Position numbers and translations under genes: made by a program. The notes under the pieces were generated by a model. The model was not told the DNA's origin, did no database searches, and saw nothing but the letters and a program-made list of their open reading frames with translations. DNA of 64,000 nt from Geothrix sp. SG200 (GTDB taxonomy: Bacteria > Acidobacteriota > Holophagae > Holophagales > Holophagaceae). Location of the stretch: the NCBI RefSeq assembly GCF_022808935.1, contig NZ_JAKZFR010000007.1, forward strand, positions 1-64,000, read 5' to 3'. This document shows positions 34,152 through 35,891 of this stretch, piece after piece. Positions within the stretch are counted from its first letter, which is position 1; each line of letters begins with the position of its first letter.

Positions 34152-35816
34152 ATGTCCGCCACCCTGCATCACCAGTCCCCCACCCGCAAGGCCGTTGAAG
34201 TGACGGTGCCCGCCGCCGAGGTGAGCGCCACCTTCAACGAGGTGGTGGCCAAGATCGCGCCGAAGGTCCGCATCCCCGGCTTCCGCCCCGGCAAGGCCCC
34301 CCGGCCCGTCCTGATGCAGCGCTACGCCCGCGAGATCCAGTCCGACGTGGCCCAGCAGCTCGTGGAGAAGCACTTCTGGAAGGCCGCCCAGGAAGCCGGC
34401 GCCCTGCCCATCTCCCATCCCTCCCTGGAGAAGCTGGACCTGAAGGAGGGCGCCGACGCCGTCTTCCGCGCCCAGTTCGACGTGGCCCCCGAAGTGGCCC
34501 TGCCGGACTACAAGGCCATGGCCCTCACCAAGAAGAAGCGGGCCATCGACGAGTCCACCGTGGCCGAGCACCTGGAGGGGCTCCGCCAGCGGGCCACCAA
34601 GCTCCTGCCCGTGGAGGACGGCGCCGTGGCAGAGGGCCTGGTCGTCACGTGCGACATCCGCGTGAAGCCCCAGGGCCTCAAGGCCCAGACCTACCAGGAC
34701 CAGGTGCTGGAGATCGACGGCAAGCGCCCCTTCGACGCCCAGATCCTCGGCATGAAGGTCGACGAGAAGAAGGCCTTCAACCTCACCCACCCGGATGACG
34801 ACGCCAACAAGGTCCTCGCCGGCAAGTCCCTGGCCTACGAGGTGCAGGTCAAGGACATCCGCCGCAAGGACGTGCCCGTCCTGGGCGACGACTTCGCCAA
34901 GGACATGGGCGCCTTCGAGAACCTGGACGCCCTGAAGGCCGCCGTGAAGAAGGACCTGGAGGAGGCCGCCGAGCGTGACGCCGTGGCCCGCCTCCACGCC
35001 AACATGCTCGACACCCTGCTGGAGGCCGCGCCCTTCGAGGTGCCCCGCTCCATGGTGGCCCTGCAGCTCGATGATTACTGCCAGGAGTTCGCCCAGCACG
35101 TGGCCCGCCAGGGCATGGACCCCAAGAAGGTGAACTGGCAGGGCTACCGCCAGTACCGCCTCAACGACGCCGAGCGCGCCGTCCGCAGCGGCTACCTGCT
35201 CCAGGCCATCGGCAATGCCGAGAGCATCGAAGTGCCTGAGGCGGACATCGACACCGAGATTCGGAACTTCATGGCCGAGAACCAGGTGCAGCAGCCCTTC
35301 GAGGCCTTCAAGGCCGAGCTCGAGCGCCGCGGCAACACCACCGAGATCAAGGGCCGCCTCCGCACCGACCGCATCTTCACCCACCTGCTCGCCACCGCCA
35401 AAGTCACCGAGGAGCAGCTGGACAAGGCCGCCTTCGAGGCCCTGGTCGAGCTGGAGCGCAAGCGCGAGGCGGGCCTGCCCGTGAACCGCTTCGACGCCGG
35501 CGGCCTGGAGGGCGGCGACCTGGAGGGCCAGGAGGGTGGCGAGCCCGCCGCCGTGGCCCCCGCCGGCCACGTCCACGGCCCCGACTGTGACCACGACCAT
35601 GATCACGGTCACGAGCAGGGCCACGAGGAGGAGGCGGCTCCCGCCAAGAAGCCCGCGGCCAAGAAGGCCAAGGCCGAGCCTGAAGCCGAAGAGAAGCCCA
35701 AGAAGGCCGCCAAAAAGGACGAACCCGCCGCCGAGAAGCCCAAGAAGGCCGCCGCCAAGAAGGACGAGCCCGCCGAGGACAAGCCCAAGGCCAAGAAGCC
35801 CGCGGCCAAGAAGTAG
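34152..35816 (+). CDS. tig: Trigger factor with His-rich and Lys/Ala-rich tail
   Basis: A 554-residue trigger factor. The ribosome-docking loop is present as GFRPGKAPRPVL near residues 44-55, followed by the PPIase-like and arm domains. E. coli trigger factor has 432 residues, and the core here ends near 465. Beyond it, residues 473-494 are histidine-rich (HVHGPDCDHDHDHGHEQGH) and 495-554 are repeats of Lys, Ala, Glu and Pro (KKPAAKK-like), resembling histone H1 tails. GGAG precedes the ATG. Tig followed by clpP is the usual order, but clpX is not here. Confidence 0.93.
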   Translation: MSATLHHQSPTRKAVEVTVPAAEVSATFNEVVAKIAPKVRIPGFRPGKAPRPVLMQRYAREIQSDVAQQLVEKHFWKAAQEAGALPISHPSLEKLDLKEGADAVFRAQFDVAPEVALPDYKAMALTKKKRAIDESTVAEHLEGLRQRATKLLPVEDGAVAEGLVVTCDIRVKPQGLKAQTYQDQVLEIDGKRPFDAQILGMKVDEKKAFNLTHPDDDANKVLAGKSLAYEVQVKDIRRKDVPVLGDDFAKDMGAFENLDALKAAVKKDLEEAAERDAVARLHANMLDTLLEAAPFEVPRSMVALQLDDYCQEFAQHVARQGMDPKKVNWQGYRQYRLNDAERAVRSGYLLQAIGNAESIEVPEADIDTEIRNFMAENQVQQPFEAFKAELERRGNTTEIKGRLRTDRIFTHLLATAKVTEEQLDKAAFEALVELERKREAGLPVNRFDAGGLEGGDLEGQEGGEPAAVAPAGHVHGPDCDHDHDHGHEQGHEEEAAPAKKPAAKKAKAEPEAEEKPKKAAKKDEPAAEKPKKAAAKKDEPAEDKPKAKKPAAKK

Positions 35817-35838: not shown

Positions 35839-35864
35839 GAAGGCGCCTGCTGGCGCCTTCTTGC
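35839..35864 (+). terminator. Hairpin terminator between tig and clpP
   Basis: GAAGGCGCC and GGCGCCTTC form a perfect 9-bp stem around TGCT, then TTGCT. The short T-run makes it weak, so some readthrough into clpP is plausible. Confidence 0.6.
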
Positions 35865-35891
35865 TATCCTGATGAGCCAGCCGGAGGGCCC

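Follow-up and report, generated by a model that had tools for sequence, protein, structure and literature searches.

A candidate metal-binding tag under purifying selection in the disordered tail of the Geothrix trigger factor

The trigger factor of Geothrix sp. SG200 ends in a disordered tail that carries the eleven-residue stretch HVHGPDCDHDH, which is under strong purifying selection and recurs on further trigger factors as well as on proteins unrelated to them. We hypothesize, with a probability of roughly 0.58, that the protein is an ordinary trigger factor whose tail bears a short linear metal site, and that it would thereby act as a cytosolic metal buffer or donor. The gene lies in the window, that is, the whole 64,000-nucleotide stretch of DNA analysed, and is organized as follows.

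34152..35816, plus strand: tig, single-copy gene for trigger factor, 554 aa (TIGR00115; Trigger_N and Trigger_C)
34152..34502, plus strand: N-terminal ribosome-binding domain, residues 1-117 (Trigger_N; trigger factor N-domains matched in the PDB)
34278-34301, plus strand: signature GFRPGKAP, inside the N-terminal ribosome-binding domain
34503..34901, plus strand: middle FKBP-like domain, residues ~118-250, diverged in sequence (FKBP folds among the Foldseek matches of the model)
34902..35480, plus strand: C-terminal chaperone domain, residues ~251-443 (Trigger_C; pLDDT ~90 to near residue 443)
35481..35567, plus strand: acidic/Gly linker, residues 444-472 (...RFDAGGLEGGDLEGQEGGEP...), conserved, pLDDT <50
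35568..35600, plus strand: candidate metal-binding tag HVHGPDCDHDH, residues 473-483, nine invariant positions in the Geothrix alignment
35601..35624, plus strand: additional His residues, 484-491, variable in number and mostly gaps in the Geothrix alignment
35625..35813, plus strand: K/A/P/E stretch, residues 492-554, with KKxAxKK units and tandem repeats (by composition)

The core of the protein is that of a trigger factor. The match to the whole-protein equivalog model TIGR00115 scores 310.5 bits (cut-off 180.2), a Pfam scan places Trigger_N (PF05697) at residues 1-143 and Trigger_C (PF05698) at residues 258-413, and the core is 98% identical to those of the nearest named relatives, G. paludis and G. 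terrae. Within GFRPGKAP, a GFRxGK-type motif that we take to be the ribosome-binding signature, residues G43, F44, R45, G47, K48 and P50 are invariant in 35 aligned rows. The top Foldseek matches of the predicted model are the trigger factors of E. coli and Thermotoga (the latter presumably being the source of entry 3gty), and the middle domain matches FKBP folds at E-values from about 4e-4. PF00254 does not match the middle domain in this or any other trigger factor of the family, and the prolyl isomerase of this domain, as modelled, may be inactive. One trigger factor copy is found across the entire 3.36 Mb genome. Most Geothrix genomes in the profile search, this one included, also show a second PF05698 match without a second Trigger_N, which is perhaps a SurA-type protein. 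Genes for tRNA-Arg and tRNA-Leu lie close upstream of tig and a ClpP-like gene, named by eye, lies downstream; between tig and the latter, a GC-rich inverted repeat and, behind it, a short stretch rich in T (35840-35865, by eye) look like a terminator. No metal-related gene was seen adjoining tig.

The tail begins where the predicted fold ends. AlphaFold2 gives a confident core up to residue 443 and predicts residues 444-554 to be disordered (pLDDT about 30), while the alignment with the E. coli trigger factor stops at residue 422, so that the extension beyond the core amounts to about 111-122 residues. The sequence-only reading had described a His-rich segment and a Lys/Ala tail at 35568-35816, adding some 80 residues to the normal end. 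Both features are indeed there and in frame: HVHGPDCDHDHDHGH begins exactly at 35568 and the stop codon at 35814-35816 ends the same frame as the trigger factor. The length holds for the named segment, residues 473-554, and falls short of the whole extension. Seven His and one Cys lie within residues 473-491, which thus form a His/Cys-rich region, and the K/A/P/E stretch that follows contains three KKxAxKK units and has a net charge of +7, with 14 acidic residues. A PDB search with the tag region returned no match even at an E-value of 10. An assembly fusion or a frameshift into a neighbouring gene, which had been offered as a trivial explanation, is ruled out, since none of the 43 Geothrix trigger factors whose C-terminus is complete lacks the tag.

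Selection separates the tag from what follows it. In 41 aligned Geothrix sequences, with all sequence pairs pooled and shared ancestry ignored, pN/pS is 0.19 for the N-domain, 0.33 for the middle domain, 0.24 for the C-domain and 0.145 for the linker (taken as residues 433-472), compared with 0.019 for HVHGPDCDHDH, 0.37 for the distal His residues and 0.48 for the K/A/P/E stretch, the weakest constraint in the protein. H473, V474, H475, G476, P477, C479, D480, H481 and H483 are identical in 41 of 41 sequences while their codons vary. With 0.60 synonymous differences in the tag, the constraint acts on the protein and not on the DNA, and a requirement at the DNA or RNA level is ruled out. Among 544 eleven-codon sliding windows the tag ranks eighth by pN/pS; it is more tightly constrained than the GFRPGKAP window (0.045) and about as strictly kept as the best parts of the core. 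Neutral low-complexity drift at a dispensable C-terminus, as might be suspected from the way in which His- and Lys-rich tails come and go among families, is therefore very improbable for the tag, whose pN/pS of 0.019 over 41 sequences stands against near-free synonymous change; the K/A part alone could be near-neutral. The possibility had also been raised that the tail occurs in all close relatives and has no function. It does occur in all of them, but selection this strong argues that the tag is not without function.

The tag and the K/A stretch thus differ in kind, the one being strictly and the other loosely constrained. After the tag, the 41 Geothrix sequences vary between 20 and 86 residues in length and between +2 and +8 in net charge, which stays this low because Glu is interleaved among the Lys and Ala residues, and the final ten residues keep a net charge of +3 to +6 in every one of them. 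What is conserved is therefore composition and a basic end, not sequence. This part may be likened to the basic DNA-binding tails of histone H1-like or HupB-type proteins, and it might be argued that it is the working part of the tail, adding affinity for rRNA (or DNA), and that the His tag is secondary. The retention of the basic end throughout Geothrix fits this proposal, as do the recurrence of K/A tails on trigger factors of other lineages (families f22 and part of f3, and g7, g8 and g11 within the family) and the scarcity of KKxAxKK, which outside the three units in the tail occurs in only two other places in the genome. One of these is a very long KKAAPKK repeat run at G000:C4:110732-111133 (L288) that holds 23 of the 27 KKxAxKK sites of the genome and shares an open frame with sequence resembling indole-glycerol-phosphate synthase; it is possibly a separate histone-like gene. 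We nevertheless consider a primary role of the basic part unlikely, given that it is the least constrained region of the protein, is variable in length and low in net charge, and is missing in g9, where the tag is kept. The contact with rRNA or DNA proposed in the sequence-only reading may still hold, and in our preferred reading, a tail built around a metal site, the variable K/A/P/E stretch would most likely serve as a solubilising spacer that is weakly attracted to rRNA.

Among 66 complete trigger factors of the family, from which two copies cut by a contig end (L081 and L086) were excluded, the pattern H.HGP.C.H is found in 54, another His-rich end in three (all g2) and neither in nine. 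The tag is missing from the examined trigger factors of g3, g7, g8 and g11, and the existence of untagged copies within the family indicates that it is not required for trigger factor function as such. The two parts of the tail also occur separately: g9 has the tag without the K/A part, in g7, g8 and g11 the tail is basic but untagged, and g3 has neither. Trigger factors with both features, of which no common example had been known to the sequence-only reading, are found in Geothrix, g4, g5 and g6 and, separately, in the family f18. Outside the family, tagged trigger factors are present in three other Acidobacteriota families, namely f3 (L184, L185, in which the tag is doubled, and L190), f18 (three genomes, where a basic end is present as well) and f47 (one genome), while in f22 many trigger factors carry just a basic tail, and the remaining trigger factors sampled mostly have a tail that is short or absent. 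A quickly built tree of 115 trigger factors, computed with the mixture model off and with long branches joined, requires seven changes of the tag (one of the changes being the contig-cut row L081) and nine of the basic tail. The tagged trigger factors of f3, f18 and f47 occupy separate places on this tree, and the seven changes suggest either several origins or very frequent loss; since rows L169-171 and L173 were included on account of their tag, the proportion of tagged rows is not a frequency.

The tag is not confined to trigger factors. A search of the Geothrix genome with the relaxed pattern H.HG..C.H hit twice, once in the tail of trigger factor and once at the N-terminal end of a DUF1292 protein (PF06949), and the reversed-pattern control hit nowhere, which indicates that the occurrence of the pattern is not due to chance. 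The DUF1292 protein (G000:C3:495173-495466; L253, L266) carries the N-terminal sequence HEHGPDCNHDHD, with the form HxHGPDCxHDHD, and its N-terminus reads MAHEGHEHGPDCNHDHDD... with the same tag. A DUF1292 match was found in 70 genomes of the family, and 42 of the 50 N-termini read carry the tag. Of the eight that do not, those in g9 (four) and g11 (two) have a Cys/His-rich stretch instead and those in g2 (two) do not; judging from the residues exchanged, such a replacement would be the ligand swap expected of a metal site. The DUF1292 gene is flanked by a cold-shock protein gene and an aconitase-like gene, both named by eye, and nothing metal-related was noticed among these neighbours. Since the relaxed pattern is confined to these two proteins and lies at or near a free end in both, their tags might share a metal ion, so that zinc would bridge the two proteins or dimerise trigger factor, making a metal-switched regulator of the ribosome-bound pool. 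Matched presence of the two tags was not found in the family, however: of the two proteins, just DUF1292 is tagged in g3, g7 and g8 and just trigger factor in g9, where DUF1292 has the different Cys/His stretch. As the DUF1292 tag is retained where trigger factor lacks one, the two are not obligate partners, and we regard a zinc bridge as quite unlikely.

A wider scan covered 396 Acidobacteriota genomes and, beyond the phylum, viral contigs. HVHGP.C.H occurs in 47 of the 396 genomes and its reversed control in none; outside the family its hosts are trigger factors (four genomes) and a small His-rich protein (five; L136-138, L172 and L176), while L174 and L175, which are frames without a visible gene, were not counted as hosts. 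The small His-rich protein (also L267 and L270) has two tag-like sites and HVDYLHDGHLHH repeats, and the two copies scanned against Pfam and NCBIfam gave no family above cut-off. In the viral contigs, 23 HVHGP.C.H stretches were found, compared with five and nine for two rearranged controls, whose frames look gene-less by eye. Hosts among them are a small SEC-C protein (L338 4868-5077, and L355), which has two tags ahead of the SEC-C motif, a thioredoxin (L341, L345 and L346), and a phage protein of the family phrog_8954, which bears the tag at its C-terminus (L348 was scanned; four others look alike). At least six of the 23 stretches (L344, L354, L356, L350, L351 and L357) look like gene-less frames and were not used as hosts, nor were the uncertain L343 and L358. 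It is tempting to speculate that H-x-H-G-P-x-C-x-H is a transplantable metal-binding tag with which bacteria and phages have equipped unrelated proteins at their free ends, DUF1292 among them and several with a part in the synthesis, folding or export of proteins (trigger factor, SEC-C, thioredoxin). In Geothrix, the tag would then link the ribosome-bound chaperone to metal status, trigger factor serving at the tunnel exit as a sensor or donor of metal. We put the odds of this broader proposal clearly below even.

How might the tag bind metal? Its eleven residues include four His and one Cys, enough for a four-ligand site. In the proposed mechanism, two ligand arms, H473-x-H475 and C479-x-H481-x-H483, would be joined by a G-P-D turn, and each tag would accommodate a single divalent ion, with Zn(II) the most likely and Ni(II), Co(II) or Cu possible alternatives; the same residues would also be compatible with redox or Cu(I) roles. 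We infer, from the abundance of trigger factor and its place at the exit of the ribosome, that the tag most likely turns it into a buffer or donor of metal where new metalloproteins emerge, the tagged protein either buffering metal or passing it to nascent chains. The C-terminal DLHDHDH of PacL1 binds Zn with a KD of about 3-9 uM (PMC9374683), and by analogy a tag with an extra HxH and a Cys could bind more tightly than the PacL1 motif.

The sequence-only reading had pointed to nickel or zinc binding as in SlyD. While the anatomy of the tail and the selection on it lend good support to a putative metal site, the case for nickel is weakened. A SlyD-like nickel metallochaperone, in which trigger factor replaces an absent SlyD in delivering nickel to hydrogenase maturation, is suggested by the combination of an FKBP domain with a His/Cys-rich tail in SlyD, by the fact that the sole weak match of the SlyD model on trigger factor (11 bits) is the tag (residues 471-489), and by the lack of matches to that model in all 77 family genomes, the E. 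coli control being positive, although this absence rests on the E. coli model, which diverged SlyD-type FKBPs could escape. However, hypB is above cut-off in 32 of the 77 genomes and not in this one, leaving the link to hydrogenase unsupported here, whereas the tag is kept in every complete Geothrix copy. As the tag does not follow hypB, nickel delivery to hydrogenase maturation appears improbable, and a buffer or donor of divalent metal, most likely zinc, would remain the preferred reading.

No published description of such a trigger factor tail or of the motif itself was found in the literature searched, whose reach left most subscription journals outside. HVHGP was met a single time, as part of an unrelated peptide from cassava. 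Of HGPDC and three variants, HGPHC alone was present, in papers whose titles point to unrelated subjects. The findings suggest a linear motif that family models have missed, as it is short and located in disordered ends. A selected metal tag on the ribosome-exit chaperone would bear on the question of where new proteins acquire their metal ions, by allowing metal loading during translation to be tested directly; the shared tag is also a first handle on DUF1292.

Compared with known systems, the Geothrix protein shares its three-domain core and ribosome-binding signature with the trigger factor family (TIGR00115), has its best structural matches in E. coli and Thermotoga, and differs from the family by the 111-residue disordered tail with tag and K/A stretch and by a middle domain that PF00254 misses. 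SlyD is likewise an FKBP-type chaperone with a C-terminal His/Cys-rich tail, and ttSlyD is among the Foldseek matches. However, the protein is not a SlyD orthologue, as NF008008 scores 11 bits against a cut-off of 174 and the N- and C-domains of trigger factor are retained. Metal-binding His-rich tails are already known on the core chaperones GroEL1, HspA and SlyD, with metal binding reported for the His-rich C-terminal tails of actinobacterial GroEL1 and of HspA/GroES of Helicobacter pylori (PMC9374683, PMC7840056). GroEL1 and HspA are unrelated to trigger factor and are likened to it by description, since they too are core chaperones whose C-terminal tail is rich in His and specific to a lineage. 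PacL1, a DUF1490 protein, has a disordered C-terminus ending in an HDHDH motif that has been shown to bind zinc (PMC9374683), but it is an actinobacterial membrane protein whose motif lacks H-x-H-G-P and the Cys, and despite the similar HDHDH run the Pfam scan of the trigger factor gave no DUF1490 match. The DUF1292 protein (PF06949), in turn, belongs to an unrelated family and carries the same tag at its N-terminus.
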